A stretch of 54,219 nucleotides of DNA, from positions 1 to 54,219 of the forward strand of contig PNNF01000016.1 in NCBI GenBank assembly GCA_013824085.1, in the 5' to 3' direction. This document shows, piece after piece, positions 4,189 through 21,556 of this stretch (position 1 is its first letter; every line of letters begins with the position of its first letter). This DNA is from Chlorobiaceae bacterium (GTDB taxonomy: Bacteria > Bacteroidota > Ignavibacteria > Ignavibacteriales > Ignavibacteriaceae). The notes under the pieces are model-generated. The model was not told the origin of the DNA and did not search any database. It was given only the letters and a program-made list of their open reading frames with translations. Position numbers and translations under genes: made by a program.

Positions 4189-5439
4189 CTACTCTTCTTT
4201 CACTTCTGTTTCATCAGTGGGTTTAGTTAAAGTTTGAAGTTTATACATTTGTATTTTTTCGCGCTGCTTAGAAAGTTCTTCTTGCATCGCTCCATCTACT
4301 TGCGGAAATGCGAGTCTTTCTTTTAGTGTTGGAACTAAGTCAACTTTAATTAAGATGATTAATTCTTTTTTAGAAACAGTAATTCGATCGCTACCAAAAA
4401 GATATCTTAGCCCGAAGACCCACCAAGGCAGATCTTTTAAGCCGGGAATACCAACACGTGTAACCTTCTCATCATTCACAAACAATCCGCCAATAACAGT
4501 CTCTTCGCCATCCAGCATTAATACTTGAGTTTTTGCTTGTGTCTTTTTTATTTCAGTTGAAAGTTCTGAAGGAAAACCACTGCTTCTTTCAACATCCAGA
4601 TTTACAAGAATGTATGGAACACCTTCTTCAGTATAGATATAAGGAATTACTCGAATGATTGACCCAGTTGAAAAAAATTGTTCAACTACGTTGCCCGCAA
4701 AATCTCTTTGCTTAATAGAAAAATCTGAACCAACTTGAATACGTCCTTCAATTCTATCGCGAACAATAATGCTTGGACTTGCAATAACTTCGCCAAGGTT
4801 TTCGCTCTCAAGAAATCTAATTAGTCCCGCGAACTCGCCGAGCATTCCGCCAACAGAAAAATTTCTTGTAGTTGTAATTTTTCCATCAGGAGCATTAATT
4901 CCACCAGTAGCAGAGCCTTGCTGTTCGCTTTCTGTAGCAGTTGTTTTAACTCCGCCGCCAATAGAAAAATCTCTTTGACTCATTAACAATTCCCAATTCA
5001 TTCCACGTTCTTTAAAGTTTGTAATATCCAGCTCAAAGAAGACAGCAGAAATTTTTACTTCACGAGAGTTCACAGATGCATAAGTTTTCGGCTCAATTAC
5101 AACAGCTTCTTTTTGTTTAATTACTATTACTCTTGGAGTTCTTTCAATTAATAAATTTGCTGCTTGCGTAATAATTAAGAGAGCTTTTTCATAATGGATA
5201 TTAGGAAGTTCAATTCCGATAGGATCAGTCCTTTCAACCTGCGAAACAATAGTAACTCCTTTTTTTGTCAAACTGATATCACTAAGTATTTCGATTGCTT
5301 TGTTGAAAGGAAGTGATGCTGAAAAAGTTACAATCTCGTCGGGAGGAGTGAATCCTCTAAGTAAATTTTCAGAAGGATCTTGCGCAAATAGATTCGCACA
5401 AAATATGAGAGAAAAAATAGATATAAAAATTTTTTTCAT
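4189..5439 (-). CDS. pilQ: Short PilQ/GspD-family secretin (outer-membrane pilus channel)
   Basis: Forms the gated outer-membrane pore through which a type IV pilus or pseudopilus passes. From the ATG at 5439 it has 416 residues: a signal peptide (1-20), an N-terminal ring domain (about 30-110) and a secretin core (about 205-370). The core includes the family signature from GEETVIGGLF through IPGLKDLPWW to the LILIKV strand, and a charged tail follows. A GTG at 5451 would add four residues and give a 4-bp overlap with the preceding gene. The ATG is preferred because GAGG lies 6 nt before it and a normal signal peptide starts there. It is shorter than usual PilQ (about 600-700) and no AMIN domains are seen. 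A PilP-like partner is fused into the upstream gene. Confidence 0.88.
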   Translation of the reverse strand: MKKIFISIFSLIFCANLFAQDPSENLLRGFTPPDEIVTFSASLPFNKAIEILSDISLTKKGVTIVSQVERTDPIGIELPNIHYEKALLIITQAANLLIERTPRVIVIKQKEAVVIEPKTYASVNSREVKISAVFFELDITNFKERGMNWELLMSQRDFSIGGGVKTTATESEQQGSATGGINAPDGKITTTRNFSVGGMLGEFAGLIRFLESENLGEVIASPSIIVRDRIEGRIQVGSDFSIKQRDFAGNVVEQFFSTGSIIRVIPYIYTEEGVPYILVNLDVERSSGFPSELSTEIKKTQAKTQVLMLDGEETVIGGLFVNDEKVTRVGIPGLKDLPWWVFGLRYLFGSDRITVSKKELIILIKVDLVPTLKERLAFPQVDGAMQEELSKQREKIQMYKLQTLTKPTDETEVKEE

Positions 5440-5447
5440 AAATAACC

Positions 5448-6335
5448 TCACTTAGGTTTTACTTCTTTCGTAAGTTTAAGTTCAATTTGTTCAACAATGC
5501 CGCCTTTGTTCAGAATAAATTTGACGGTGTTTTTTTCATAATCGACGCGTGTGGCATAACCAAGATAGACAGGATCGCCTTCATTGACAATGAACGAATT
5601 GCCCGCTACATCAACAATGAATGCTCCTTCTGGCACTAAGGCAAGTAATTTGGCGCCTTGCTGAACGTCAAGTAGTCCGTCAATATTGGGCGGAATTTCA
5701 GAAAGGATTAACGGATAAAAAGCATCAGATAATTTTCGAGCGATTAATCTGTTCTCGACTAAGTTAGCAACACTAAACCTATTGTCTAAAGAATAATAAA
5801 CTGAAACTACTATCTCATAAGCGACTAAATATTTTATTCCCTCATCATCTTTACTTGCAACAAGGTTAGACAAATTTAATGTTTTTATTTTTTTTAATTC
5901 TTTACTCTGTTCAATTGCGAAAATTAATTGATAGATATCGTTGTAAGTTCCTTGTCCCGCAATTTTATAATTATAGAAAAAAAACTCACCTTCAGGTTTC
6001 TGTTCAATGAACTCAATGTTGGTCTGGAAATCACTTGAAAAAAGAGGTCTAATTTTTGTTATAAAATCATAGAATTCAAGCATCGAAAGATTTTGTGGAA
6101 TGTTAAATTTTCGAGCGGAAAGTATAGAATCAATTAATTCTGATTTAATTAATTTTGTTTTAAGATCTTCTTTCAATAGTACAGGATCATACTCGAATTC
6201 TCTTAATTTAACTAACTCTGTTTTTTTGTTACTAATAGTTCTAAGCTGAAAAAAATAGATATAAGCAACTCCAAGCGCTATTAAAAAAACAAGTACTCCA
6301 AATAAAGAAAAAGTATTTTTTAATTTTCTATTCAT
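5448..6335 (-). CDS. pilO: PilO-PilP fusion-like inner-membrane alignment protein
   Basis: A 295-residue bitopic protein: short cytoplasmic start, one membrane helix (about 9-29), a coiled stretch (about 30-75), a PilO-like ferredoxin-fold region (about 85-180) and a final beta-rich domain (about 218-287). The last domain has VVDVAGNSFIVNEGDPVYLG followed by a strand run ending in LNKGGIVEQ, which resembles the C-terminal domain of PilP that contacts the secretin. In classical systems PilO and PilP are separate proteins. Here both seem joined, which fits the absence of a separate pilP between pilMN and the secretin. The PilO part is recognised by topology and context rather than strong motifs. 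An unrelated membrane protein with a PilP-like tail is the alternative. Confidence 0.68.
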   Translation of the reverse strand: MNRKLKNTFSLFGVLVFLIALGVAYIYFFQLRTISNKKTELVKLREFEYDPVLLKEDLKTKLIKSELIDSILSARKFNIPQNLSMLEFYDFITKIRPLFSSDFQTNIEFIEQKPEGEFFFYNYKIAGQGTYNDIYQLIFAIEQSKELKKIKTLNLSNLVASKDDEGIKYLVAYEIVVSVYYSLDNRFSVANLVENRLIARKLSDAFYPLILSEIPPNIDGLLDVQQGAKLLALVPEGAFIVDVAGNSFIVNEGDPVYLGYATRVDYEKNTVKFILNKGGIVEQIELKLTKEVKPK

Positions 6336-6434
6336 TGTAGCAAACCGAATAGTAGAGGAATTTATTTTTTATTTGTAAACGTGACGCAAAAGATTTCTTG
6401 ATTAAGAAAATATTTTTTAACGAGAAAGAATTCA

Positions 6435-7967
6435 TTATTGCTTCTCCATCTCGTTAGTTAATACCGACATTTTAAAAATTAGATTGAACCTATAAGCAGA
6501 TGATTCACGAATTGGTTCATAAATTATACTCTTAAGTGTTGAGGGTTCAAATTGTTCAGCGAATCTTGTGATAGCTCTGGGTGTTAAAGATAAACCTTCG
6601 ATAATAATATCATCTTGTTCAGAGCGCGCAATATTTCGTACCCATAAATTATTTTCGCTTCCAGTAAATTTAGAAATTGTTTCAACAAGTCCGCCAAAAA
6701 TTTCTACGCCAATAGTGGCAGAGTCAAGAATAGCTTGAGTTCGGTCGAAAGCATTTATTTTCACGTCCAGAACTTCTAACTGTGAAAGAAGTTCTAAGTT
6801 CTGTCTTTTTAATTCCGATTGGAGAAAAATCTCTTTGTCTAATTCACTTTCAGTTCTATTATTAACTAAAATCTGTTGAGTAATAAAAAATGCAGTAATA
6901 AAGAGAAGGGGAATCATTGCATAACCATGCCAAGCGAACTGAAATGGTTTCTGATCTTCTTTAATATATGTAGGAGTTAGATTAATTCCTTTATGTTCTT
7001 TTTTAACTTCATCAAAATATTCTTGTGCGGCTGCAATTGGTCCGGCGAATGATGAGAGCTTTGCACGCGTCATTTCATCGAGAGCAGTAGTATCTACTTC
7101 GTTAAATTCTAATCGAGAGACATTTGCTTCGGGGAATGTTCCGTAGAAAGATAAAATTAAATTTTCCGAATCATCTTCACCACAAACAATAATATTGTCA
7201 AGAGTTGGAATTCCACCGTTCTCCATCTCGAGTAAAATTTTTGAGAAGAAGACATCGTAAGTGTGAAGATTATTAATACCCAGATCAAGTGTAGGTCCAA
7301 TATGTTTTAATTCTCTACCGTGTAAAAAAATTAATTTGCTATACTCTTTTCCAATGTAAAAAATTAAGGAGTAATCGTCAGGGAAGAATTTTTTTCTTTT
7401 TGCTACGTAATATGCGAGCGAAAGATCAACACTTTTTACAGATGCAATTTTGTAGATTCTTCGATTATTATAATTCGCTAAATTCTTGACTAACCTTAAA
7501 CAAGGAACATCAGCTCCAAGAAAAACCCCAAGCATCGATTTGTCTGAAAGTTGAACATAACCTACGGAATCTTTGTCTATAAAAATATTTTGAGAATTTT
7601 TTATTTCATCATAAATCTCAAGAGTTAGCTTACTTGTGTTAGTTTGCTTTTTATTTGTTTGATGATAAAATATTGATGGCTCTGTTAGGACAGGAATAAA
7701 TAAGGCATTTTTTAAATTAACTCCAGTGAGAGCAGAATTGATGACACTTTCATTAGAAATTTTTAAAACACCAGTATCACCGCCGGAGTCAAAGCTAATA
7801 TTTTTATCATCTGAACTTATTTCAAAAGCGGAAGATGAAGCCCCGAGATTAGAAACAAGGACATCAACTGAAGCAGCTTTAATGACTTTAAGTTTGTTGC
7901 CGACGTACTCTATAGCAGCAATTTTTGTGTCAGTACCTTCACAATATATACAAACTAGTGTTTTCAA
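6435..7967 (-). CDS. pilM: PilM-PilN fusion protein of the pilus alignment complex
   Basis: The first about 325 residues are an actin-like cytoplasmic domain of PilM/HofM type, ending near the conserved-looking segment DNIIVCGEDD (about 257-266). At residues 328-333 comes GINLTP, which matches the NLLP peptide that starts PilN and that PilM binds. A membrane helix (about 348-367), a coiled coil (about 370-410) and a PilN-like periplasmic domain follow, to residue 510. PilM and PilN therefore appear fused, so the binding peptide is held in cis. The start is a TTG at 7967, 2 bp after the pilT-like stop; no nearby ATG keeps the domain intact. It links the cytoplasmic ATPases to the PilO/P periplasmic frame. 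Confidence 0.75.
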   Translation of the reverse strand: MKTLVCIYCEGTDTKIAAIEYVGNKLKVIKAASVDVLVSNLGASSSAFEISSDDKNISFDSGGDTGVLKISNESVINSALTGVNLKNALFIPVLTEPSIFYHQTNKKQTNTSKLTLEIYDEIKNSQNIFIDKDSVGYVQLSDKSMLGVFLGADVPCLRLVKNLANYNNRRIYKIASVKSVDLSLAYYVAKRKKFFPDDYSLIFYIGKEYSKLIFLHGRELKHIGPTLDLGINNLHTYDVFFSKILLEMENGGIPTLDNIIVCGEDDSENLILSFYGTFPEANVSRLEFNEVDTTALDEMTRAKLSSFAGPIAAAQEYFDEVKKEHKGINLTPTYIKEDQKPFQFAWHGYAMIPLLFITAFFITQQILVNNRTESELDKEIFLQSELKRQNLELLSQLEVLDVKINAFDRTQAILDSATIGVEIFGGLVETISKFTGSENNLWVRNIARSEQDDIIIEGLSLTPRAITRFAEQFEPSTLKSIIYEPIRESSAYRFNLIFKMSVLTNEMEKQ

Positions 7968-7969
7968 TT

Positions 7970-9193
7970 TTAAGTCGCCGATAAAATTTGTTGCATACGT
8001 GTTTTATTATTTGAAAAATTTATTGCCGTATCTAATGAAATTTTCTTTACCAAATATAACCTTTTTAAATCTTGTTCCATCGTGGTCATGCCATTTTGTG
8101 AACCTTGATTAATCATCATATAAATTTCTGAAGTGTTATTATTTTTTATTGCCGCTTTAACGCTGGATGTAACTAACAAAACTTCTTTTGCTAATGTAAG
8201 TTTACCTTGCACAGTAGGAACTAATTTTTGTGAAACTACAGTCGTCAAAACATCTGCTAATCTATTTCTTACTCGGTCTTGTTCGGATGGATGCACTTCA
8301 GCAATAATACGATCAATTGATTCAACAGCGGATGAAGTATGTAAAGTTGAAAAAACTTTGTGACCAGTATCTGTAACTTCAAGCGCAGCCATAATTGTAT
8401 CAGGGTCTCTCATTTCACCAATGACAATAATATCTGGATCTTGTCGCAATGATTGGATAACACCATCTTTAAAAGACTGAACATCTCTACCAACTTCGCG
8501 ATGTTTGATTATAGCAGTATTAGATTTATGGATAAACTCTAATGGTGAAGCAATAATAATAATATGAGCAGGGTCAAATTTGTTATGATGATCAATAATT
8601 GAATCAAGCGTTGCTGATTTTCCGGAGCCTGTAATTCCAGTGATTAAAGTTAGTCCAAACTTCAAAAAGTTGTGGCTTAATGCTTTCATTATGCTCGGAT
8701 GAAATTCTAAAGACTCTAAAGATCTTACAGAAGAAGAAATAGCACGCATATTAAGTGAGAGAGTATCAACCTCGAAATATGTAGTTGCTCTAAATCTGAA
8801 TTGCAAATTTTTTCTTGGATAGAAAAACGAATAACTAAAGTCGATGCTTTTTGTAACGCTCAAAAATTGTCTTTGATTATCTGAAAGAAGAGTAAGAATA
8901 ATTAACGCACTTTCATCAGCAGACATTTTTGGTAGTTCTTTAACTCTTTCTTTTTTTCCATGAACTCTCATCCAAACCATCTCACCGTTGCCATGTCCAC
9001 CAAATTCAATATCAGAAGCTTCTGACTCAATCATTGAAGAGAGCATTTTGTTGAAAAAATTTCTTAAAACAATAATGTCTTCAGTTTTCAATAATGAAAG
9101 GTTATCGATAATGAAATTAATTCTATCTTGCCCTAAGAGGACAGAGGATAATTTTGATAATACTTTGTTTAATACTTCTTTTACAGCTTCCAA
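7970..9193 (-). CDS. pilT: PilT-like retraction ATPase with altered Asp box
   Basis: A hexameric secretion ATPase of the PilT group, 407 residues (PilT is usually about 345-370). The Walker A is GITGSGKS (186-193), Walker B is around DIIVIGEMRD (254-263), and the His box is GHKVFSTLHT (277-286). The C-terminal half carries PilT-like features (QKLVPT, AKEVLLVTSSVKAAI). The Asp box, normally TIEDPIEF, reads IIASPLEF, so Glu and Asp are replaced by Ala and Ser. The start is a TTG at 9193 with AGAGAT just upstream; the next Met is at residue 50. It lies 12 bp after pilB. A retraction or regulatory ATPase of the pilus is the likely role; the Asp box change could slow or abolish hydrolysis. Confidence 0.85.
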   Translation of the reverse strand: MEAVKEVLNKVLSKLSSVLLGQDRINFIIDNLSLLKTEDIIVLRNFFNKMLSSMIESEASDIEFGGHGNGEMVWMRVHGKKERVKELPKMSADESALIILTLLSDNQRQFLSVTKSIDFSYSFFYPRKNLQFRFRATTYFEVDTLSLNMRAISSSVRSLESLEFHPSIMKALSHNFLKFGLTLITGITGSGKSATLDSIIDHHNKFDPAHIIIIASPLEFIHKSNTAIIKHREVGRDVQSFKDGVIQSLRQDPDIIVIGEMRDPDTIMAALEVTDTGHKVFSTLHTSSAVESIDRIIAEVHPSEQDRVRNRLADVLTTVVSQKLVPTVQGKLTLAKEVLLVTSSVKAAIKNNNTSEIYMMINQGSQNGMTTMEQDLKRLYLVKKISLDTAINFSNNKTRMQQILSAT

Positions 9194-9205
9194 TTTTATC
9201 TCTAT

Positions 9206-10993
9206 TTATTCTTCCATAGTTGCAGAAATTACTTCTTCGAATGAAGTGATACCAATTTTAACTTTTTCTAAACCGCTATCTCTTAAGTTTAGACTGCCAT
9301 CTTTTTTTGCTTGTACTCTGATTAGTTCTTCATCAATATCGCCACCAGATTGGACAATTATTTTTCTAAGTTCTTTAGTAAAGTAGAGCGCTTCGTGAAT
9401 AGCAGCTCTTCCTTTGTATCCGGTTTTGTTGCATTTTTCACAACCCACAGCTTCATATATAGTAAAGTTTTTCCATTCCAAGTAATCTAATCCTAAAGAT
9501 TTAATAAAAACTTCATCAAGATTTGAAATTTTTCGTTTACAATTAGTACATAAAGTTCTAATCAATCTTTGTGCCACAATTAGATTAATTGCATAAGCAA
9601 TCAGAAAAGGTTCAATTCCCATCTTGTAAAGACGAGCAACTGCGCTGGGTGCATCGTTTGTGTGAAGCGTCGAAAAAGTTAAGTGTCCAGTATTTGCAAG
9701 TTTAATTGCCACTTCGGCAGTCTCTTTATCTCTCATTTCGCCCACGAGTACAATGTCAGGATCGTGTCTTAAGATTGATCTGATTGCTTGCTCAAAATTC
9801 ATTTTGTAACCGATCTTCAACTGACGCGCACCTTCAATTACATACTCAACTGGATCTTCAACAGTAAGTGTATTCACAGACGGATCAATTACTTGATAAA
9901 GAGCAGCAACGAGAGTTGTACTTTTTCCACTTCCCGTTGGTCCAGTCAAAATAACCATTCCTTGCGGTTGGTTGATAGCTTTTTCAAAAGCTTGTTTTGC
10001 ATATCCAAACAAACCAAGTTTACTTAAATCTCGAATTACTTTTCTATCGTCAAGAATTCTAATTACAATACTTTCAAATTTATTTTTTAATTCCGTTCCA
10101 ACCATTGGAAGAATAGAAACTCTAAATCGAATTATCTGTCCATCAATTTCTCTTTGAATAAATCCATCTTGTGCTCTCTCTCTTTCAAATCTATCTAATC
10201 CTTTTGCACGGTCTTTAACAACGGCTATAACAGCTTCAGGCGAAGTGTTGTTTTGTGCGTGCCAAAGACTCAAGTTGCCGTCAACTCTAAAAAGTATATC
10301 AGTTTGTTTGTTAGATTTAGGTACGAAGTGAACATCACTCACGCCTTTACGGACGGCTTCAACAAGTGCTGCTTCAATTAGATTAATGAGTGCACTTTTA
10401 TTAATTTCAGCATCGAGTTCTTTCTCATCAAGCCCTTGGTCACGGTCATCAACAGAAATTTCGGTGTTCTCTTCGAACATTTTTAAGAAGGTGTTTTCGG
10501 GGGGGAATATTTTAGAAATTAGAGCGTCGTAATTTTTTTTCTTAATGAAAGTAACTTCATATTTTTTTACATTCAAATCAAAAGCAATTTTTGGAATCGC
10601 CCTTTCAGTAGGATCAACAGCGGCTAAAAGTAGTTTTTCTTTTAGTCTATCGTCCCATCCAAATGGAATTACTTTATGTTCAAGCATTAAATTTTTTAAT
10701 TGATCGCCGGCAGCAGAGAAAGCATTTTTGATTGATTCAATTTTTTCATGAGTTACTTCGTCGATTCTTAAATCAAGCTCGCGGAAAGCATAAAGAAATG
10801 CCACTTCGCGAAAAATGGTGTCATGATCGTAACCAAAATCTTGAACAAGTATTTGCGCAAGGTTTCTTTTAATTTTGCTCTTGTCACTATTTTTTGCAGC
10901 TAACGCCTTTTCGAGTGTGGCTGCATCAATAATTCCTTTCTTAAAAAGTAAGTAACCGATTTTGTCGGTCATCTCAAGATTAGCATCAATCAT
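9206..10993 (-). CDS. pilB: PilB/GspE-type pilus assembly ATPase
   Basis: The cytoplasmic motor that drives pilin polymerisation. The 595 residues comprise an N-terminal GspE_N-like domain (about 10-160), a linker and the ATPase. Visible motifs are Walker A GPTGSGKS (351-358), an intact Asp box TVEDPVEY (about 377-384), Walker B IVLVGEMRD (414-422), the His box GHLTFSTLHT, and a zinc-binding set of two CxxC pairs (Cys482, 485, 518, 521). The ATG overlaps the pilC stop by 4 bp, so translation is coupled. The intact motifs contrast with the next gene, whose Asp box is altered. Confidence 0.95.
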   Translation of the reverse strand: MIDANLEMTDKIGYLLFKKGIIDAATLEKALAAKNSDKSKIKRNLAQILVQDFGYDHDTIFREVAFLYAFRELDLRIDEVTHEKIESIKNAFSAAGDQLKNLMLEHKVIPFGWDDRLKEKLLLAAVDPTERAIPKIAFDLNVKKYEVTFIKKKNYDALISKIFPPENTFLKMFEENTEISVDDRDQGLDEKELDAEINKSALINLIEAALVEAVRKGVSDVHFVPKSNKQTDILFRVDGNLSLWHAQNNTSPEAVIAVVKDRAKGLDRFERERAQDGFIQREIDGQIIRFRVSILPMVGTELKNKFESIVIRILDDRKVIRDLSKLGLFGYAKQAFEKAINQPQGMVILTGPTGSGKSTTLVAALYQVIDPSVNTLTVEDPVEYVIEGARQLKIGYKMNFEQAIRSILRHDPDIVLVGEMRDKETAEVAIKLANTGHLTFSTLHTNDAPSAVARLYKMGIEPFLIAYAINLIVAQRLIRTLCTNCKRKISNLDEVFIKSLGLDYLEWKNFTIYEAVGCEKCNKTGYKGRAAIHEALYFTKELRKIIVQSGGDIDEELIRVQAKKDGSLNLRDSGLEKVKIGITSFEEVISATMEE

Positions 10994-12369
10994 ACAAAAA
11001 AGTTTTGGATATAGTTAATAAAAAATTCTGACATTCCAGGAGTCTTAGGTCTAATGGTTGCTGTTTCAGCAGATACAAGAGTAAGTGCAATCATAACGAC
11101 CATAGTAACCATAGCAATAATAATTTGAATCAATTCAATAATATTTTTTAATCGAAATACTGTTTCGCTTTCATAATAATTTGCAAGCTGAAGAGCAGTA
11201 TTTTTTATTGTTCCAGTTTCTTCTCCCGAGTGAAATCGAGAGATAGCAGTTTCAGTAAAAACTCCGCTTGCTTCCATAGCTTCGGTAACACCAATTCCTT
11301 TTTGTATCATCATTGGAATTGCAACATTTTTTATTTTCGACTCAAAGTAAGAGTTTCCTGTTGCTTCCGAAGCGATTCTAATCGGCTCAATACTTTCTGC
11401 AGAACCACTATAAAGCGTATAGAATACTCTGCAAAATACTTCTATCAAAGTCTTATGGATTAAATTTCCTACGATAGGAATCTTCAACATCATTTTATGA
11501 AAAAACAATTTTCCGTTTGTTGTTCGAGAAAATTGCCATAAAGCGACAGCAGGAATCAAAACAGAGATTAAAATAATTATTACATTATCGGTTAAAAAGC
11601 CGCTGAACTTTAGTGTGAATGCTGTCATCGGTGGTAGTTCAATATCGAATCTTAAAAAAAGTTTTGCAGTTTCAGGAAAAATATAACCTACATAGTAAAG
11701 CACGGCGAGGAAGAGGACAAAAATTGTTACGGCTGGAGTAATCAAAGCGCTGCGTAAACTTCTGTTAAATTCTTGTTGTCGTTCCAAAAATTTTGCTGTG
11801 GCTTTATAAATTTCAGTCATATTGCCACTCTTAGATGCAAGTCCAAGCATATATGCGGTAAATTTTCCAAAAACAGATTGATAACGTAAAAATACAGATT
11901 GGCTGTCAGAACCTCTTTTTAATTCATTGTTAATCTCTTTTAATGCATCTCTAAGAGTTTTGTTTTGCGTATCATTTATAAGGAGAGTTAAAATTTCTCC
12001 ATAAGAAAGTTTTTGGTCGAGGAGTTCAGCACTAATTTTCACGAAAGATACAATTTCTTGTGCAGGAGGTTTGGCTACAAAATCAAGGAGTTTTTTATTG
12101 ACATAAACTACTTCGTAACCAAGTTTAGAGAGAGCATCAACCACTTCTTGCTTGTTAAATGCTTTCTGTTCACCCGTGATTGGTTTGTCGCCCCCTTTTT
12201 TTACTTTATAAAGATAAGATGACTTTTTTTCTAAAAGTTTAAGAGTTAGTTGATTTTTTTGTAAAATTCCATTAAGTTTTCGCTTAGCTTCTTTTACGCT
12301 ATCCCCAGTTAAAACTCCTGAAATAATCTTTCCAGATACATTTTCAGCAGAGAAACGATATTCTACCAT
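10990..12369 (-). CDS. pilC: PilC/GspF-type inner-membrane platform protein
   Basis: A polytopic protein on which PilB acts to add pilins. Of its 459 residues the first about 100 form a cytoplasmic extension that resembles a GspF N-terminal segment (MVEYRFSAENVSGK). Two GspF domains follow (about 105-230 and 305-430), and membrane helices lie near 207-230, 257-280 and 410-435. GLASKSGNM and SGEETGTI are the paired loop motifs of the two repeats. It is the first machinery gene after the pilins, separated from pilin A by 131 bp in which no clear terminator is seen. Confidence 0.93.
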   Translation of the reverse strand: MVEYRFSAENVSGKIISGVLTGDSVKEAKRKLNGILQKNQLTLKLLEKKSSYLYKVKKGGDKPITGEQKAFNKQEVVDALSKLGYEVVYVNKKLLDFVAKPPAQEIVSFVKISAELLDQKLSYGEILTLLINDTQNKTLRDALKEINNELKRGSDSQSVFLRYQSVFGKFTAYMLGLASKSGNMTEIYKATAKFLERQQEFNRSLRSALITPAVTIFVLFLAVLYYVGYIFPETAKLFLRFDIELPPMTAFTLKFSGFLTDNVIIILISVLIPAVALWQFSRTTNGKLFFHKMMLKIPIVGNLIHKTLIEVFCRVFYTLYSGSAESIEPIRIASEATGNSYFESKIKNVAIPMMIQKGIGVTEAMEASGVFTETAISRFHSGEETGTIKNTALQLANYYESETVFRLKNIIELIQIIIAMVTMVVMIALTLVSAETATIRPKTPGMSEFFINYIQNFFV

Positions 12370-12500
12370 AATTGAAAAACTTCTTATGCTGTTTGAAACT
12401 GAAATTTAATTATTTTTTAAACGAAAAGAAACAGATATTTAAACAAAAATCAAAAAAAAGCTATTATTTTTAATTGCCCGCTTAAGGCACAACCCATTTC

Positions 12501-12887
12501 TTATGGATTGGTTACACTTGTGGAGATGTTGTTCATTGTTACTACCGCCTCTACCTCTACTTTATTTCCATTGCTACCAATTTCAGTCCCGGTTCCTGTG
12601 ATGACTACAGTGCCCGCATTGATTGAAGTAATTGCATAGCTACCATAACCTGTAGTATCTAACCCCGAAACTATTGTCCAGCCAATGAATGAGTTGCCAC
12701 CACCGCCCGTAGCGAGTGGTTTTTTATAATATTGTTGTGCCATTGAACCAAGGTTTACAACATCAGAAGTGAGTCCTTCGATATTGGTATGTTTAGTATG
12801 CGATACGAATAAGTTGATTCCGACAATCACCGCAATACCAACAAGAATAACGCCCAGCACTATTAACAGAAGTTGTTGTTGACCCAT
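12501..12887 (-). CDS. MGQQQ-type pilin A
   Basis: A 128-residue pilin-like subunit. The start is the ATG at 12887, shared with all copies in this array; an upstream in-frame Met at 12938 would read back through a terminator hairpin and is rejected. The mature end would follow Gly2 (MG then QQQLLLIVLGVI), giving an almost leaderless pilin with one hydrophobic N-terminal helix (about 6-28). The conserved Glu5 of classical type IV pilins is absent. The globular part (about 45-128) has a YYKKPLA motif, a GGGGNSF loop and a beta-rich end finishing in NP. It is about 60% identical by eye to pilin B. Its leader carries a hairpin terminator about 25 nt before the ATG, so expression may depend on read-through. 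Major-pilin status is inferred from position and duplication. Confidence 0.82.
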   Translation of the reverse strand: MGQQQLLLIVLGVILVGIAVIVGINLFVSHTKHTNIEGLTSDVVNLGSMAQQYYKKPLATGGGGNSFIGWTIVSGLDTTGYGSYAITSINAGTVVITGTGTEIGSNGNKVEVEAVVTMNNISTSVTNP

Positions 12888-13409: not shown

Positions 13410-13500
13410 ATTATACTCGATTACTTGTAAAAAAAGAGCAGAATTACTTCTGCTCTTCAAGATAAAAAATATTTTAATCTTAGGGATTAAATATTACTGT
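13384..13500. repeat. 117-bp direct repeat, copy 2 (pilin array)
   Basis: Second copy of the block at 12862-12978, with no mismatch. It spans the start of the truncated pilin, the hairpin leader and the last codons of pilin B. Confidence 0.95.
13428..13457 (-). terminator. Rho-independent terminator after pilin B
   Basis: Same 10-bp stem (13434-13457) and T run as at 12907-12935, here 22 bp after the pilin B stop and about 25 nt before the ATG of the truncated pilin. It should end most pilin B transcripts. Confidence 0.82.
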
Positions 13501-13866
13501 TGTAATATTGTTAGGAGTAACAGTTGCCCGCACTGAAATTGGCGCCCCGTTATTCCCAAGTTCTGTTCCAAGACCTTCAAGAACTAAAGATTGAGCACCT
13601 GGAGTTTGAATAGTATATCTACCATTTCCAGTTGTATCAAGAGCTGCAGGAACAACCCATCCAGTAAAAGTATTTCCACCACCAGCGAGAGCAAGAGGTT
13701 TTCTGTAGTAAGCTTGTGCCATAGAGCCAAGATTCATAAGATCTGATGTTACGCCATCAATGTTTGCTTGTTTTGCACTTGCGGTAAAGACGTTAATACC
13801 TACAACTACTGCGATACCTACAACGATAACGCCAAGTACGATTAGGAGAAGTTGTTGTTGACCCAT
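13480..13866 (-). CDS. MGQQQ-type pilin B (first gene of the array)
   Basis: A 128-residue pilin-like subunit with a two-residue leader: MG then QQQLLLIVLGVIVVGIAV. A hydrophobic helix spans about 6-28. The globular domain has MNLGSMAQAYYRKPLA, a GGGNTF loop and a beta-rich end finishing in NP. No Glu at mature position 5. The ATG at 13866 is preceded by AAGGAAA. It is the only intact gene of its type at the promoter-proximal end of the array and is followed by a strong hairpin terminator, the layout expected for an abundant subunit. Major pilin of the adjacent machinery is the likely role, inferred from context. No processing enzyme is encoded nearby. Confidence 0.83.
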   Translation of the reverse strand: MGQQQLLLIVLGVIVVGIAVVVGINVFTASAKQANIDGVTSDLMNLGSMAQAYYRKPLALAGGGNTFTGWVVPAALDTTGNGRYTIQTPGAQSLVLEGLGTELGNNGAPISVRATVTPNNITTVIFNP

Positions 13867-13937: not shown

Positions 13938-13939
13938 AT
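13908..13939 (-). promoter_or_regulatory. Candidate operator dyad and -10-like box upstream of pilin B
   Basis: TTAGTTAGACCTGACTAA (13908-13925) is an 18-bp imperfect dyad in which seven of nine positions pair. It lies about 50 bp before the pilin B ATG. On the minus strand a TATAAT-like box lies at about 13928-13933, just upstream of the dyad. Both are kept in the second leader (dyad at 13071-13088). A regulator site is inferred from symmetry and position only. Confidence 0.35.
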
Positions 13940-14087
13940 CATACCAAAAAAGAAATTTTATAATTTATTGAAAATTGAGCGAGAAAAGTTCAAAAATAAT
14001 CTATTTTCACATTATTTATCCACGAAAATGCTGAAAGAAAATTTTGCTAAAAAAAACAAACGGTAATAATTTTAATAACAAGCAAAT

Positions 14088-14633: not shown

Positions 14634-14948
14634 TTTATTATGATGTTGAGTGACTCGAAGCATATCGATGCCAAAAAATATGAAACTCTCTCTACAAAAG
14701 TTTTCAGAGAAAGGATGACAGTTATAAAAACTATAAAATTTTCTTTGTTGAACAATTTTTCTTCAATACGTTTTTAAGAATTATTTTTTCTAAATTTTTT
14801 AAAATCTACTCATCAAGTTGTAACTCTTTACTCAATGATAGGAATCACAAATAAAAAAAATCATTCAAGTTGAACTTTAAACTCTCCTATTCTATTGCTA
14901 TATTACGCAACAATATCTGTGCAAACAATAAACAATAAAAGGAGTAAT

Positions 14949-15440: not shown

Positions 15441-15457
15441 ACAGAAGGAAATAATTA

Positions 15458-16237
15458 ATGAAAAAAATATCTTTGCTTTTCGCTCTCTTCGCTCTACTAA
15501 GCTTTGCTTTTGTTGGTTGCGAAACTACAACCGATCCAGATCCTGCAACTCAAACTGGAACGCTAACTTTAACCTCATCTCCTGTCGGTGCACAAATTTG
15601 GAGAGATGGTGTTAATACTCAAAAAGTTACTCCTGATAGTTTAACAGGACTAACCGCGGGAAATTATAGCATCACACTAAAACTACAAGGTTTCAGAGAT
15701 TCAACATTTACAGTTACTGTTGTTGCTGGACAAAGAGTCTTAAGAAATATTAACTTAACACAAAATCCGTTGGTAACGGAAAGATTCACTAACGTTCGTC
15801 TTTTTGAAAGAGAAGCTACTGGATTTAGTGGATTGAGATTAAGTGATGGAAGACAGCTAAGTTCTAATGATGCAACTGCAGATATCTTCCTCGATGGAAC
15901 TGGAAATGGTCCTCTTGATTTAAAGAGTCAACATTTAAGATTACCTGCACCATCAACATTAAGATACACAGACTTCTTTAATGGCAATGGCACTGGAGCT
16001 ACAAACATTGATGATGGAGTTGATTCTCCAATTTTTTCATCTGCCCCAACTGCTGGTTGGACTACTTCAAAATTATTCACTACCAGAAGCACATATAGTT
16101 TCTTGTACACAGATGATTTGTATTATGTAAAACTAATGGTAACAAATAATGGTGGTGGAACAGGCCCAGGAGATCCATTCCGTTGGATAGATGTAACGTA
16201 TATTTTTAATAAAACTCTAAATGATAGAAGATTTTAA
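15458..16237 (+). CDS. PEGA-domain lipoprotein
   Basis: A 259-residue lipoprotein with lipobox FVGC (Cys21). Residues about 34-102 form a PEGA domain: GTLTLTSSPVGAQIWRDG, a PDSLTGLTAGNYSITLK turn and the closing VAGQRVLRNINL. The remaining about 155 residues are a Gly/Asn-rich beta region without a recognised family; its layout loosely recalls HmuY-like domains (uncertain). PEGA domains are common in surface proteins. It is the last gene before a terminator at 16261, so it forms a two-gene unit with the lipoprotein upstream. Confidence 0.85.
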   Translation: MKKISLLFALFALLSFAFVGCETTTDPDPATQTGTLTLTSSPVGAQIWRDGVNTQKVTPDSLTGLTAGNYSITLKLQGFRDSTFTVTVVAGQRVLRNINLTQNPLVTERFTNVRLFEREATGFSGLRLSDGRQLSSNDATADIFLDGTGNGPLDLKSQHLRLPAPSTLRYTDFFNGNGTGATNIDDGVDSPIFSSAPTAGWTTSKLFTTRSTYSFLYTDDLYYVKLMVTNNGGGTGPGDPFRWIDVTYIFNKTLNDRRF

Positions 16238-16559: not shown

Positions 16560-17054
16560 ATGAGTACCGGTCAATCGCTTTTAACTTTATTTGGAATAAT
16601 GATGTTAAGTATGTTGGCACTTAGGTTGAATTCAACGTTACTTATTACTCAGGACACAATGCAAAACTCTAAGTTTGGATTATTGGCCGTATCGTTAGCA
16701 ACTTCATACTTAGAGGAAGCTAATAGAAAAGCATTCGATGAAATTACCCTTGCCCAAGAAATTACTACGGTAACGCAACTAACCGCGGTTAATGCTCTTG
16801 GTCCTGAAATTGGTGAAGTTTATCCAGATTTTGATGACTTTGATGATTTTAATAATTTAATCAGAGTGGATGACACAATGCCTTCAGCAATTTTCAATAT
16901 ACGTGCCAATGTTGTTTACACAACTACCGCAAACCCAAACTCAACTTCCGCAACAAGGACATATCACAAAAGGATAAATTTAACAATTTCAAGCCCTTCG
17001 ATGACAGATACTTTGAGATTTTCAACTGTTTATAGTTATTGGGCATTTAGGTAG
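16560..17054 (+). CDS. PilV-like minor pilin, cassette 1
   Basis: A 164-residue pilin-like protein. A possible four-residue leader MSTG is followed by QSLLTLFGIMMLSMLALRLN, a hydrophobic helix without Glu5. The segment LAVSLATSYLEEANRKAFDE (about 42-61) fits the PilV/GspI pattern in which a Glu-containing helix follows the N-terminal stalk. The rest is a beta-rich region ending in a Tyr/Trp-rich strand. The paralogue at 19340 has the same plan. It is the first gene of a three-gene unit and ends 7 bp before the next. A minor pilin that primes or caps the fibre is the likely role. Confidence 0.72.
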   Translation: MSTGQSLLTLFGIMMLSMLALRLNSTLLITQDTMQNSKFGLLAVSLATSYLEEANRKAFDEITLAQEITTVTQLTAVNALGPEIGEVYPDFDDFDDFNNLIRVDDTMPSAIFNIRANVVYTTTANPNSTSATRTYHKRINLTISSPSMTDTLRFSTVYSYWAFR

Positions 17055-17061
17055 GTATGAT

Positions 17062-17661
17062 ATGGGATTTTCATCATTAATAGATATTTTAGGCGCAATG
17101 GTAATTGGTGGAATTATGCTTTTGACGCTCTATAGGGTGAATGAAACAGCAGTCGCAAACAACTACTATTACACTAACGATATGCTTGTACAGCTAAATT
17201 TAGTTGAGGTTGTTAGACTTATTGAGCATGACTTTAAGAAAATTGGTTATTGTAGGGATTTTACACAAATTCCAATCCCAAGTAGAGCGATACTTCGGGC
17301 TGATACTTCGAGCATTAGTTTTTTAACTGATGTGGATAATAATGGAATTGTAGATACCTTAAACTATTATTTAGGGACAACAGTAGAATTAAACATGACA
17401 GCAAACCCTCGTGACAGATTACTTTACAGAAGAGTAAATAGTGAAATTCCTCGAAGTGCAAACTTAGGTGTCATTCAATTTAATATTGTTTATTTTAATC
17501 CACTTTATGATCAACTGTCAACACCGGTTAGCGAACCCGGAGAAATTGCCTATATGCAAATAAATGTTCGCGTCGAAAATATAAATGCGTATGATGAAAA
17601 TTATGCGGGTGCATTTTGGCGACAAATAAGATTAGCGGCAAGAAATTTACAAAACAGATAG
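17062..17661 (+). CDS. PilW-like minor pilin, cassette 1
   Basis: A 199-residue protein with leader MG and then FSSLIDILGAMVIGGIMLLT. This resembles the GFTLIELLVA start of PilW/GspJ proteins, but the acidic residue is an Asp shifted by one place. The long helix runs on through NLVEVVRLIEHDFKKIGY (about 48-65), the usual PilW pattern of an early helix followed by a GY/GF turn. A beta-rich domain with a DVDNNGIVDTLNYY strand follows. The 19885 protein is its paralogue. Minor pilin role inferred. Confidence 0.75.
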   Translation: MGFSSLIDILGAMVIGGIMLLTLYRVNETAVANNYYYTNDMLVQLNLVEVVRLIEHDFKKIGYCRDFTQIPIPSRAILRADTSSISFLTDVDNNGIVDTLNYYLGTTVELNMTANPRDRLLYRRVNSEIPRSANLGVIQFNIVYFNPLYDQLSTPVSEPGEIAYMQINVRVENINAYDENYAGAFWRQIRLAARNLQNR

Positions 17662-17673
17662 CAAGAGAAAATT

Positions 17674-18888
17674 ATGTTTGGAAAAGCATCGATAATATTA
17701 ATACTTGGTTTCAGCGCAATATTTTTACTCTACACTCAACGATTTACTGGTTTTTCTGACACTTCTGTGGAGAATTATGTTGACTATTATAGCGAATCAA
17801 TGGCGGCAAGTATGGCATTGACCGGCGCTAATATGGCGGCTAATCAAATTTTTTTAGATCAAAGTTGGACTGAAGGTTTCAATAATATTGCTTTCAATAA
17901 TGGGAGAATTAATGTAACCGTCAATACTCTTAATATAGTTCAGCGAGAAGTTGTATCAATTGGAACTTTTAATAGTGTTGATCGAGAAGTTAGAATTCTT
18001 CTGCAACCGAGTAATTTTGCAAAGTTTGCATACTATACTTCAATTATGCCGGGAAATCTTTGGTTTGTTACTGGAGATACAATTTGGGGCCCAATGCATA
18101 TACAAGGGAATTTGAATGTCTTTGGCACACCAGTATTTAACGGGCGAGTAACAATACGTAATCAATTAAGACGATTTAATGCTGCGTCAAATCCAAGGTT
18201 TTTTGGGGGATTTGAGACAGGTGTTAGTATTCCAATGCCAGGGAATGTTGATGCTTTAATTGCTGCTTCCAATAGTGGTGGAAGAAATTTTAGGAATACC
18301 GATCTTTTTATAACTTTTAATACAGATGGAACTGTAACTTGGCGAGCAGGAACCTCAGGAAACTTTGTAACAGAACCGCTTTCAACCTTTGCTCCAAATG
18401 GTTCAATTGTTACTGAAAGGGGGAACGTTCATGTAAGCGGGACGCTAAATGGTCGTGTTACGCTTGCAGCAACTCATAGTAGTGGTACTGGTCATGGAAA
18501 TGTTTTTTTAGTAGATGATTTAGTTTATAGACAAAATCCTTTAACTGGTCCCAGTCAAGATATGTTAGGTTTAGTTGCAACAAACAATATCATTATCCGA
18601 AATGTACCTGCAAATAGAGGAGATGTAAATATTCATGGCTCTTTATTAAGTCTTGGTGGTGGTTTAATGGCAGAAGATCATGGCTCTATTGGTCGTCAAG
18701 GTGCTATTAATCTTGTAGGTGGAATAATAGAAAGACAAGCCCAACCGACTGGAGTTTTTGATCCGGGTACTGGCCAAATAACCTCTGGATATAATTCGCG
18801 CTTTAAATACGATGAAAGATTTATGCTCACATCGCCGCCATTTTTTCCTGTTACTGGTAGTTTGGAAATAGTTTCTTGGTATGAATAG
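17674..18888 (+). CDS. Large PilX-like pilin with DUF4900-like passenger, cassette 1
   Basis: A 404-residue protein: leader-like MFGK, a hydrophobic helix (about 5-24), then an alpha region with ALTGANMAANQ and WTEGFNN, seen also in its paralogue at 20441. A long Gly/Asn-rich beta passenger follows (about 115-404). Its C-terminal half, from VDDLVYRQNP through DMLGLVATNNIII to the FPVTGSLEIVSWYE end, looks like the DUF4900 domain of pilus-tip or secretion-associated proteins. By size and order it corresponds to PilX/GspK. It is the last gene of cassette 1; a weak hairpin (TTTCGAA / TTCGAAA, 18929-18945) lies after it. Confidence 0.72.
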   Translation: MFGKASIILILGFSAIFLLYTQRFTGFSDTSVENYVDYYSESMAASMALTGANMAANQIFLDQSWTEGFNNIAFNNGRINVTVNTLNIVQREVVSIGTFNSVDREVRILLQPSNFAKFAYYTSIMPGNLWFVTGDTIWGPMHIQGNLNVFGTPVFNGRVTIRNQLRRFNAASNPRFFGGFETGVSIPMPGNVDALIAASNSGGRNFRNTDLFITFNTDGTVTWRAGTSGNFVTEPLSTFAPNGSIVTERGNVHVSGTLNGRVTLAATHSSGTGHGNVFLVDDLVYRQNPLTGPSQDMLGLVATNNIIIRNVPANRGDVNIHGSLLSLGGGLMAEDHGSIGRQGAINLVGGIIERQAQPTGVFDPGTGQITSGYNSRFKYDERFMLTSPPFFPVTGSLEIVSWYE

Positions 18889-19339
18889 TTCTGAACCTTG
18901 TTAGCTTTAATTATCAACATAAGATAATTTTCGAAAAGTTCGAAATATTATTTGGTTAGGTTCTTCAGGTTTAAAAATTTTGCAAAAATATTTCCTAAAA
19001 TCGTCCACAAAATTTAGAATGAAATAAATGTGTTCTAAGTATCGAACAAGTAATTGAGACTTCTGAATTATTTTATTCTTTCATTAAGTGAAGCCAACCG
19101 AAATATCTCAATCAAAAGAATTGATACTTTTCTTCTTCTACTTTGGGAGGTCACCCAAATGATTTTGGAGTCAAGTGACAGCTTAAGAAATTTTCAAAAG
19201 TCTCCGATTATTAAAGTAATTTTGTAAACAATTTTTTTTTCTGATAAATAAGAGAGAATAATAGAGAACTACTAATTCGCTTGATTATGGTTCAAAATTT
19301 TTTCAAGTTACGCTCATAAAAGATAAATGATTTAAACTA
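18889..19339. other. Intergenic region between the two minor-pilin cassettes
   Basis: About 450 bp with no gene. It has a 7-bp perfect hairpin at 18929-18945 with no good T run, the family 2 inverted-repeat element at 19055-19205 and an A+T-rich leader before cassette 2. Confidence 0.6.
19055..19205. repeat. Small inverted-repeat element, family 2, copy 1 (MITE-like)
   Basis: About 151 bp with one end TGAGACTTCTGAATTATTT and the other, read in reverse, GGAGACTTTTGAAAATTTC. The same GAGACTTCTGAA-type ends bound 28612-28731. The interiors differ in length and sequence. Non-coding. Confidence 0.5.
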
Positions 19340-19882
19340 ATGCAAACGAACATGTTCATTACAGTTGGAACGATAATTTTGTTAGGTACTTTTATCCTTA
19401 CATCGAACACTATTATCTCCACAACTAGGCAGTCGTCTATGAATACTGAATTTTATCTAACTGCAATTGCTCTCGGTCAATCGGTTATTGAAGAAGCAAA
19501 GACAAAACTTTTTGATCAGGCTGCTACTGTGGGCACAGTTACTAACGTTTCTGATTTAACAGCTCCAAGTTTATTAGGAAGAGATGGTGGCGGTGAATCT
19601 GTTGGTAATCCCGATACACTATCCGGAAATATTTTTCGTTCTGCCGTCTTATTTAATGATGTAGATGATTACCATGATTACAATCGTCGAATAAATACAA
19701 CAAGAGCAACAAATTACAATATTAGAACTACAGTTACCTATACGAGTCCAACTTTCCCCGATAGTATTCGAACTGTCAGAACTTGGTGCAAATTAATGAC
19801 GGTCTTTGTCACTAATCCATTTATCTTGAATCCAGATAATCAACAAGATACGATTCGACTTACATATACTTTTTGTTATTAA
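19340..19882 (+). CDS. PilV-like minor pilin, cassette 2
   Basis: A 180-residue paralogue of the 16560 product. The N-terminal helix MFITVGTIILLGTFILTSN (about 5-23) is preceded by MQTN or is itself the start, since a second ATG lies at 19352. LTAIALGQSVIEEAKTKLFD (about 41-60) matches the Glu-containing helix of cassette 1. A beta-rich domain follows with repeated Thr/Asp strands and a Cys near the C-terminus. No Gly-ended leader is obvious, unlike its paralogue, so processing is doubtful. No strong ribosome site is seen. Confidence 0.68.
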   Translation: MQTNMFITVGTIILLGTFILTSNTIISTTRQSSMNTEFYLTAIALGQSVIEEAKTKLFDQAATVGTVTNVSDLTAPSLLGRDGGGESVGNPDTLSGNIFRSAVLFNDVDDYHDYNRRINTTRATNYNIRTTVTYTSPTFPDSIRTVRTWCKLMTVFVTNPFILNPDNQQDTIRLTYTFCY

Positions 19883-19884
19883 CC

Positions 19885-20433
19885 ATGCAGACATTAATTG
19901 ACATATTAGGTGCTTCACTTATAGGCGGAATTGTTGTGCTGATGATAATTCAGCTAAATATGAGTATCAATAATTCTTTGACTACACAAGTTTTGAGTAA
20001 AGTGAATCAGGCTGAGCTTTCCAATGTCGTTTTGGTTCTAGAAGAAGATATAAGAAATACAGGATTCCGAATCCCCGACAGTCTTAAAATTTCAAGAGCC
20101 GATTCGAACAGAATAACAATTAGACTTGATATGGACAATGACGGTGGAATGGACTCAATTTCTTATTATCGACAAGTTGATGGAGGAGTAAGTTTTTTGT
20201 ATCGTGTAGTGAATAATCAAGTTGCAAACGCTGCAAGATTTCCGATCGCAACATTTAGAGTTTGGTATTATGATGCGAATGGAAACATCACAACATTTAG
20301 ATCTCGAATAAAATCTTTTAGAATTTTAATGACAGTAGTAAGTAGCATCCCAGAACCAGAACGCGATCAAGCAGGAAATTTTATTTTTGCAGCGGTTCAT
20401 TGGGAAAAATTATTCAATCCAATAAATCTATAA
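19885..20433 (+). CDS. PilW-like minor pilin, cassette 2
   Basis: A 182-residue paralogue of the 17062 product. The ATG at 19885, 2 bp after the preceding stop, is chosen over a TTG at 19873 because it starts MQTLIDILGASLIGGIVVL, which aligns with the cassette 1 start. A long helix and the NVVLVLEEDIRNTGFRI turn follow, then DMDNDGGMDSISYYRQ, equivalent to the DVDNNG strand of cassette 1. There is no leader Gly before the hydrophobic helix, so it may stay membrane-anchored. A minor pilin is still the best call. Confidence 0.72.
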   Translation: MQTLIDILGASLIGGIVVLMIIQLNMSINNSLTTQVLSKVNQAELSNVVLVLEEDIRNTGFRIPDSLKISRADSNRITIRLDMDNDGGMDSISYYRQVDGGVSFLYRVVNNQVANAARFPIATFRVWYYDANGNITTFRSRIKSFRILMTVVSSIPEPERDQAGNFIFAAVHWEKLFNPINL

Positions 20434-20440
20434 AAAAAAT

Positions 20441-21556
20441 ATGTTTGGAAAAGGTTTATTAATATTTGTCTTAGGTGTAATCTCCATTGGAGGATATATT
20501 TTCTCTGATCTCTTTTTTTTCAGTGACCAGATGACAAGAAATACAGTTACTTTTTTTAATAGTCAAAGTGCAAATAATGTGGCGCACGCTGGGGCAAATA
20601 TGGCACTAAGGCAGTTGGCTAATAATTCAAATTGGAGAACGGGATTTAATAACCTAAATGTTATGGGAGGACGATTAAACGTAACCCTACACGATGTAAC
20701 TTTTGACGGACAAAGCACAATTCTTATTAGATCCATTGGAATTGCAGGATTAAACACAGATGAAATTGTAAGAGATACACAATTAGTTTACGTTAGAGCA
20801 GGAGCTGTTGCAATTCCAACAACAGTTAGAGGAGCGATAACAACAAACAATAATGTAAGAACACTTGGTAATTTAGTCGTTGATGGAAGAAATTATAGTG
20901 CAGCAGGCAATTTATTGTCTGGAACTGGAACCTTTGCTTTTTGGTCAACAAGAAATATTGATCAAGGAGGAAGTTCAAGTTTTGGAGGGACATCCAGCGG
21001 AAGTGATATTGTCCCATCAAGTCCAGCAAATGCAAGTATTTTTAGAGAGAACCAAATTTTTGCAGGTGGTTTTCCATCAACTCCGGATAGCGTTTTGGGA
21101 GGAACTGCAATGGGCTTTCCACCAGGCAGATTAAAGCAAATAGCTATGAGTGGTGTTAATGGTAGCCAATACACAACTGATCCCAGAACTTTAACGCATC
21201 CTTTGCGAGGTGTTACTTTTGTTGAGTTGCCAAGCGGTGATAATTGGGGTCCGGCTAATATTACTGGTTCGGGAGTTCTTGTTGTGAGTAATTCTGCTCG
21301 GAATGCAGAGATTAGAAATATAAACTGGGGACCATTTAATGGATTAATGATTGCTGATGATGTTACTAGAATTCATACTGATATTCTTGGAGGACTAATT
21401 GTTTTAAGTAACGCTCCACCTTCAGGTAATACAATTGGAAATGGAAATGGACGAATTCGTTACTCAAGTGAAACAATTCAGAATGCAGTAGGACTTGTAA
21501 GGGGATTTGGAACAGGTGGAGGCTCTCACTCTATGGTTGTGGCTTGGAGAGATTAA
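20441..21556 (+). CDS. Large PilX-like pilin, cassette 2
   Basis: A 371-residue paralogue of the 17674 product with the same MFGK start, hydrophobic helix (about 5-26) and ANVAHAGANMALRQ / WRTGFNN region. The passenger (about 120-371) is rich in Gly, Ser and Asn with many short strands and differs strongly from that of cassette 1, lacking its DUF4900-like end. It includes a GSGVLVVSNSARNAEIRN strand pattern that recalls right-handed beta-helix repeats. Divergent passengers on a shared stalk suggest different surface or tip specificities. Followed by the hairpin at 21563. Confidence 0.68.
   Translation: MFGKGLLIFVLGVISIGGYIFSDLFFFSDQMTRNTVTFFNSQSANNVAHAGANMALRQLANNSNWRTGFNNLNVMGGRLNVTLHDVTFDGQSTILIRSIGIAGLNTDEIVRDTQLVYVRAGAVAIPTTVRGAITTNNNVRTLGNLVVDGRNYSAAGNLLSGTGTFAFWSTRNIDQGGSSSFGGTSSGSDIVPSSPANASIFRENQIFAGGFPSTPDSVLGGTAMGFPPGRLKQIAMSGVNGSQYTTDPRTLTHPLRGVTFVELPSGDNWGPANITGSGVLVVSNSARNAEIRNINWGPFNGLMIADDVTRIHTDILGGLIVLSNAPPSGNTIGNGNGRIRYSSETIQNAVGLVRGFGTGGGSHSMVVAWRD

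Follow-up and report, generated by a model that had tools for sequence, protein, structure and literature searches.

To our knowledge, all textbook type IV pili need a prepilin peptidase. The glutamate at mature position 5 of pilins (Glu5) is often missing from the pseudopilin GspK. The type IV filament superfamily, as previously defined, has conserved features that include prepilin cleavage by a dedicated peptidase; the leader comprises 6-26 residues and ends in Gly, and Glu5 is near-invariant in bacteria and often absent from archaeal pilins (PMC4471445). Within the phylum Bacteroidota, the Cytophaga-type 'T2SS' (PMC5553014) clusters with type IVa pili (PMC6668835).

The window analyzed here, the whole 54,219-nucleotide stretch from a member of the Ignavibacteria (phylum Bacteroidota), contains an entire type IV pilus operon together with two genes for major pilins and two triplets of minor-pilin genes. 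The encoded machine resembles type IVa pili (PilB/PilC/PilT/PilMNOPQ and the minor pilins FimU-PilVWX) in its homologous ATPases, platform protein, secretin, PilN and PilO, as well as in its predicted pilin fold, its GspJ/PilW-type minor pilin and its gene clustering, but it is a leaderless system, without a class III leader, a detectable prepilin peptidase or Glu5 in its major pilins. GspK and the archaeal pilins similarly often lack Glu5, but their leaders are made and then cut by prepilin peptidase. The Cytophaga-type system shares the phylum and a related platform protein, but possesses an A24 peptidase (CHU_3197), and the classical Bacteroidota systems that we read have platform proteins outside the leaderless clade and lie in genomes with A24. 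The type IV filament genes of Nanoarchaeota (PMC4471445) differ in belonging to an archaeal lineage and in having subunits recognized by their class III signal peptides. In the open-access literature, we came across no report of a type IV pilus whose pilins lack a leader.

Organization of the locus

The machinery genes and their accessory neighbors are:

198..3809, minus strand: hybrid histidine kinase, accessory neighbor; homolog adjoins the response regulator in loci L167 and L168
3812..4177, minus strand: response regulator, accessory neighbor; homolog adjoins PilQ in loci L167, L168 and L170
4189..5451, minus strand: PilQ secretin (PF00263, 1.9e-23; TIGR02515, 2e-22)
5448..6335, minus strand: PilO-like protein with a C-terminal extension (family profile versus M. 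xanthus PilO 3jc8, 0.0013)
6435..7967, minus strand: PilM-PilN fusion (family profile versus M. xanthus PilN 3jc8, 3e-6, positions 363-483)
7970..9193, minus strand: PilT retraction ATPase (TIGR01420, 5.9e-93, 311.8 bits, slightly below the cut-off of 319.1)
9206..10993, minus strand: PilB assembly ATPase (TIGR02538, 5.1e-127, 424.8 bits, below the equivalog cut-off of 675.65)
10990..12369, minus strand: PilC platform protein (PF00482, 1.6e-24; GspF/PilC families)

The interval 4189-12369 is filled by the six genes from PilQ to PilC with no spare gene among them, bearing out the original prediction that the machinery is complete apart from a prepilin peptidase. In the PilM-N fusion family, 5/8 members match the PilM-like Amuc_1101 family and 2/8 match PilN (PF05137), while PF04350 matches 1/6 members of the PilO-like family; the C-terminal extension of the PilO-like protein is, judging from its position, putatively PilP-like. 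The locus thus contains the assembly traffic ATPase (PilB) and polytopic platform protein (PF00482) of the type IV filament superfamily, as well as the retraction ATPase PilT, secretin and PilM/N/O alignment proteins of type IVa systems, with PilP as a candidate. Compared with type II secretion, PilT is present and no GspC, GspL or GspM family was matched, albeit among divergent assembly proteins.

Pilin starts, sequences and predicted folds

The pilin genes are:

12501..12887, minus strand: major pilin B, leaderless, MGQQQLLLIVLG; start at 12887 rather than at the TTG that the ORF list gives further upstream
13480..13866, minus strand: major pilin A, leaderless, MGQQQLLLIVLG; identified from its model and PDB matches
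16560..17054, plus strand: minor pilin V1, GspI/PilV-like by gene order, MSTGQSLL; leaderless family, residue 5 mostly Gln
17062..17661, plus strand: minor pilin W1, GspJ/PilW by predicted fold, MGFSSLIDILG; invariant Asp8 at the Glu5 register
17674..18888, plus strand: minor pilin X1, GspK/PilX-like by gene order, MFGKASII; large C-terminal domain (PF16241 DUF4900, 4.5e-6, below cut-off)
19340..19882, plus strand: minor pilin V2, MQTNMF; homologous to V1
19885..20433, plus strand: minor pilin W2, MQTLIDILG; homologous to W1; start at the ATG, not at the TTG at 19873 of the ORF list
20441..21556, plus strand: minor pilin X2, MFGKGLL; homologous to X1

Pilins A and B share the N-terminus MGQQQLLLIVLGVI and are 61% identical. 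Every pilin in the window starts at its mature N-terminus or at most about three residues from it, and neither these proteins nor their homologs carry a class III signal peptide, i.e., a leader of 6-26 residues with Gly at its end. Among 196 distinct major-pilin homologs, the start codons (ATG in 160, TTG in 19 and GTG in 17) fall in one common column. No in-frame start lies upstream in 189 of them, the open codons upstream number fewer than six in 140, and the upstream frames show no conservation. The claim that these pilins lack the classical leader was thereby confirmed. The family itself is strongly conserved. Residue 5 is Gln, and none of the first 24 residues is charged, in 196/196. This pattern of Gln5, an uncharged N-terminus and no upstream start is far beyond chance.

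The AlphaFold model of pilin A (pLDDT 94.7) has a helix at residues 2-55 and four strands. Foldseek alone returned no match under 0.001 for the models of pilin A and W1, so structural re-alignment was needed. By this approach, the top PDB matches of pilin A were all type IV pilins, and in the alignment with PilA4 (Z 8.9) model residue 1 falls on mature residue 1; the modeled major pilin has the type IV pilin fold. The profile search that had been proposed for this family gave weak matches only in the PDB (Geobacter pilin domain, E 0.2), and the Pfam pilin models match few members of the leaderless family.

The ten best chains for the W1 model (pLDDT 86.2) were GspJ/XcpW/EpsJ, a pseudopilus model or T. 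thermophilus TTHA1219 (Z 9.9-12.4; the next, 4.0), and on this modeled fold W, the middle gene of the triplet, is GspJ/PilW. The assignment of V as GspI-like and X as GspK-like rests on gene order. Minor-pilin families V, W and X are all leaderless, with X1 homologs beginning M(F/G/A)G[KR] or similar. The two GspJ/PilW-like proteins (starting at 17062 and 19885) keep an acidic residue that is invariant in 38 homologs and that structural alignment places at mature position 5. The earlier view that no pilin here has Glu at that position therefore holds for the major pilins, and fails for the GspJ-like minor pilins.

Search for a prepilin peptidase

PF01478 missed A24 in most of the family f36 genomes that carry classical systems; we therefore built and checked a tuned profile from divergent Bacteroidota A24 proteins. 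It recovered the peptidase in 7/7 independent control genomes missed by PF01478, and in 0/19 leaderless genomes tested. In the genome-wide search that had been proposed for PilD/GspO, neither profile found an A24 prepilin peptidase in the window's genome, which is 98% complete in 75 contigs. Detection of A24 is imperfect, because three genomes (G065, G184 and G281) with classical prepilins and a platform protein came out A24-negative. Two A4 matches were weak (E 0.007 and 0.011) and, being interrupted by stops and failing to cover the catalytic motifs, were dismissed as chance. A canonical major pilin elsewhere in the genome, which would have spoken against the original prediction, was likewise not found: no classical N_methyl pilin exceeded the cut-off, and a single weak match (E 0.8) falls within an unrelated region.

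Distribution in the phylum

In a sample of 296 genomes from the phylum, with A24 called by the union of PF01478 and the tuned profile, A24 was present in 11/101 genomes with both a leaderless pilin and a platform protein versus 37/41 with a platform protein only (Fisher p 8e-20). The platform protein was present in 101/101 leaderless-pilin-positive genomes. Of the 90 A24-negative leaderless genomes, 11 are single-contig; at the class level, A24 was absent in 71/79. Each of the 11 A24-positive leaderless genomes has at least four platform-domain matches, which amounts to a second platform protein. When nine A24 loci were read, classical GFSLTE/GFTLIE prepilins adjoined A24 in eight, while the remaining locus carries a second PilB; in the examined loci, then, the usual companions of A24 are GFTLIE-type classical prepilins belonging to a second system. 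The PilC proteins of leaderless systems form one clade (support 1.0, branch 0.50), and leaderless pilin genes adjoin PilC in most gene maps read. Leaderless pilins without the peptidase are thus a real observation and a property of the lineage.

Alternative explanations

The most serious alternative, albeit an unlikely one, is that a non-A24 or extremely divergent peptidase removes a stretch of one to four residues ending in Gly, the leader then being unusually short. Gly does precede the hydrophobic tract in most major pilins (MG|QQQ) and in many V, W and X proteins (MNTG|Q, MG|FST, MFG|K), and a homology search is blind to a peptidase unrelated to A24; however, many minor pilins have no such Gly (MAYWLD, MNHLLD, MQTLID, MSSAQ, MARFI), a Gly at residue 2 is also suited to methionine aminopeptidase, the core operon has no spare gene, and A24 is absent by two models with working controls. 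Of the two possibilities first raised, nearly unprocessed pilins are strongly favored, given the fixed start and the 0/19 result, and a divergent peptidase encoded elsewhere is not. That A24 hides in gaps of incomplete genomes is highly improbable: many assemblies are drafts, the window's own among them, but A24 is also absent from the 11 single-contig genomes with a leaderless system, and an independent isolate report for Melioribacter (PMC3534657) speaks against it as well.

We see little chance that the MGQQQ proteins and the minor proteins serve some role other than filament subunit, with the machine a remnant or one using classical pilins encoded elsewhere. Their subunit role is a prediction, and Pfam recognizes few of them as pilins, but the modeled folds of pilin A and W1, the linkage to PilC, the invariable co-occurrence with the platform protein, the strong sequence conservation and the lack of a classical pilin over the cut-off all argue for such a role. 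Finally, true leaders encoded upstream of misread major-pilin starts are almost inconceivable. Pilin B has an upstream open frame with a TTG, but that frame falls within a duplicated stretch, and the comparison of homologs, in which GTG and TTG starts share the column of ATG and upstream frames are unconserved, refutes upstream starts for the family.

A proposed model of a leaderless pilus

The explanation that we consider very probably correct is a type IV pilus independent of prepilin peptidase, in which the translation start makes the mature end, with the topology and the fibers as predictions. The absence of a leader and of detectable A24, the pilin folds, gene linkage, co-occurrence and the single clade are its observed basis. 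Maturation by prepilin peptidase would have been lost in the leaderless lineage, and the pilins would be translated without a leader, such that initiation directly yields the end that PilD makes elsewhere; Met may be kept or, if followed by Gly, Ala or Ser, may be cut off by the ordinary methionine aminopeptidase. With an uncharged N-terminus and a mostly negative flank behind the helix, the pilins could take up an N-in orientation without a basic leader, and PilC and PilB would then assemble the fiber. In the major pilin, an invariant patch of polar residues, Gln5 being the last, may stand in for the Glu5 salt bridge, with GspJ keeping its acid. The apparatus would comprise a complete extension/retraction machine (PilB, PilC, PilT, PilM-N, PilO and PilQ) plus minor pilins in two GspI-J-K-like sets.

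Somewhat less firmly, we propose that this lineage probably builds retractable type IV pili, including a tip complex, without signal-peptide processing or N-methylation, the major pilin docking via its invariant Gln5 instead of a salt bridge between Glu5 and the N-terminus. The data suggest that a whole lineage dropped a processing step thought universal. A natural, conserved, peptidase-free system would show that pili can do without leader and peptidase and would uncouple targeting from maturation, and the roles of the leader, Glu5 and N-methylation would become testable in cultured organisms.

Organization of the pilus locus

The machinery operon of the window contains no spare gene, and its pilin and minor pilin genes (families V, W and X) lie close by.

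12369 to 4189, minus strand: PilC, PilB, PilT, a PilM-PilN fusion, a PilO-like protein and the PilQ secretin, in that order
13866-13480 and 12887-12501, minus strand: two pilin genes (A and B), just upstream of the operon
16560-18888 and 19340-21556, plus strand: two triplets of minor pilin genes

Two poorly conserved operon genes were assigned through family profiles: that of the PilM-N family matched M. xanthus PilN in 3jc8 (3e-6), with five of eight family members matching a PilM-like NCBI family, and that of the PilO-like gene matched PilO at 0.0013. The draft genome is 2.65 Mb and 98% complete; the pilin search placed Melioribacter and other Ignavibacteria as the nearest named relatives.

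Several neighboring features were also observed. The pilA-pilB unit is duplicated in tandem (12434-14000, direct repeats of 193 nt and 162 nt), and the inner pilin pair is decayed, one copy ending prematurely after 33 residues (about 13411-13310), the other carrying an internal deletion (about 13029-12958); a reading like the start of an IS3-type transposase lies within the duplication, at about 13250. Two genes for small lipoprotein-like proteins (14895-16237) separate the pilins from the minor pilins. A response regulator and a hybrid histidine kinase (198-4177) follow PilQ; because homologues of both keep this place in two other loci (L167 and L168), and the regulator also in L170, the pair may control the pilus.

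Pilins without a leader

The AlphaFold model of pilin A (mean pLDDT 94.7) comprises a helix (residues 2-55) and a four-stranded sheet. Eighteen pilin chains topped its VIA-align ranking (Z 9.5 to 4.9), with mature residue 1 of T. thermophilus PilA4 (6xxd) aligned to model residue 1, that of gonococcal PilE (5vxx) to residue 2, and PAK pilin (1oqw) offset by three. Among pilin A family members, some also matched ComP_DUS (9.4e-5) and PilE_C, two pilin families in Pfam. Judging from the predicted fold, the leaderless MGQQQ-family major proteins are pilins.

Pilin A homologues from the sampled genomes were read from each stop codon to the next, which would reveal any leader. All 196 distinct homologues have a start codon (ATG 160, TTG 19, GTG 17) followed by Gly; 189 lack an in-frame upstream start, and in 140 the previous stop lies fewer than six open codons upstream. 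The shortest classical leaders are six residues (PMC4471445). Residues 1-24 hold no acid and no base in any of the 196, and in 136 the post-helix flank (residues 27-42) carries a net negative charge. The minor pilin homologues read are leaderless too (V, MNTGQ type; W, MGFSTLID or MxxLLD type; X, M(F)G[KR] type), which agrees with the original observation of leaders of at most about four residues.

That no pilin carries Glu5 held for the major pilin, where residue 5 is Gln in 196 of 196, but not for W. The model of W1, the W protein of the first triplet (pLDDT 86.2), aligned best to ten chains (Z 9.9-12.4, next 4.0), namely GspJ/XcpW/EpsJ structures, a pseudopilus model and T. thermophilus TTHA1219. 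Because mature residue 1 of the full-length pseudopilus chain 9a1f_S falls on W1 residue 4, Asp8, invariant at this W residue in 38 homologues, is placed at mature position 5. On this modelled alignment, the GspJ-like subunit retains the position-5 acid that the major pilin lacks. Gene order points to V as GspI-like and X as GspK-like. The two full V-W-X triplets (16560-21556) suggest two alternative tip complexes; X proteins end in large C-terminal domains of divergent sequence, one of them a weak match to DUF4900. In the deep relative bacterium SM23_31 (L143, 8177-9049), the V protein MNTGEIIL has Glu at residue 5 and the W protein MNSLLEIL has Glu at residue 6, possibly an intermediate state.

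No A24 prepilin peptidase detected in most leaderless genomes

The prepilin peptidase (A24) model PF01478 had no match in the window's genome (98% complete), and matched 8 of the 149 genomes sampled from the class and 38 of the 296 from the phylum. This model is insensitive in Bacteroidota, as several genomes with classical platform (PilC-type) proteins were negative; because of these misses, a new A24 profile was built to include divergent enzymes of ~160 residues. It was positive in 10 of 11 control genomes; three of the ten had supplied seed sequences, leaving seven independent (E 1e-13 to 1e-21). In 19 leaderless genomes, the window's included, it gave no credible match. Re-scanning recovered the same eight class genomes and 46 in the phylum sample (n=296). 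The original reading that the machinery is complete apart from a peptidase withstood a whole-genome search with both models. In one Bacteroidota family (f36), most prepilin peptidases escape Pfam Peptidase_A24; surveys based on that model will falsely score these enzymes as absent.

With both models joined, A24 was found in 11 of 101 phylum-sample genomes with a leaderless pilin, against 37 of 41 with a platform but no leaderless pilin (Fisher p 8e-20, which ignores shared ancestry and so describes the contrast, not independent events). A platform protein was present in all 101, and 11 of the 90 A24-negative leaderless genomes are single-contig assemblies. Each of the 11 A24-positive leaderless genomes has at least four platform-domain matches, which implies two or more platform proteins. 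Eight of nine A24 loci examined encode classical prepilins near A24 (GFSLTELLI, GFTLIELMV and similar), most of the eight also having a second PilB or PilC; the remaining locus (G013:C31) has PilB only. Three genomes (G065, G184 and G281; loci L181, L228 and L229) encode a classical platform and prepilins, yet no A24 by either model, which gaps in the drafts or another divergent peptidase would explain; for this reason, absence from one draft genome alone calls for caution. In G381 (L227), which has no A24, a classical platform gene is broken by a stop, as if a classical system were decaying there while the leaderless one stays intact.

Origin and proposed mechanism

In a tree of 122 platform proteins, 89 from leaderless-pilin loci (plus five from short loci) stood apart from all classical ones (support 1.0, branch 0.50), and the simplest reading is a single loss of the leader and of peptidase dependence, retained since. 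The system also occurs in genomes labelled KSB1 and Candidatus Kryptonium. According to a type IV filament survey, Nanoarchaeota alone among phyla has prepilins while lacking a detectable peptidase (PMC4471445). The open-access literature searched yielded no description of leaderless pilins.

Normally, SRP and Sec insert the prepilin so that its basic leader stays inside; PilD then cleaves after Gly, and methylation often follows (PMC4471445). The nascent leaderless pilin has one or a few uncharged residues ahead of the helix, and its free amine and negative flank would favor an N-in orientation. Methionine aminopeptidase removes Met before Gly, Ala or Ser, and its action on the major pilin would leave Gly1. 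Assembly by PilC and PilB, retraction by PilT and the action of the secretin would, by homology, then proceed as usual. Classical pilins mutated at Glu5 fail to form homopolymeric pili (PMC4471445), which makes the invariant Gln patch the natural candidate to replace the Glu5 contact. Three of the features tested from the standard definition of type IV filaments (leader, Glu5 and peptidase) were not found in the window's system, but it has homologous machinery, and the type IV pilin fold is predicted for its subunits. From sequence and predicted models, we file it as a variant that would work like a type IV pilus.
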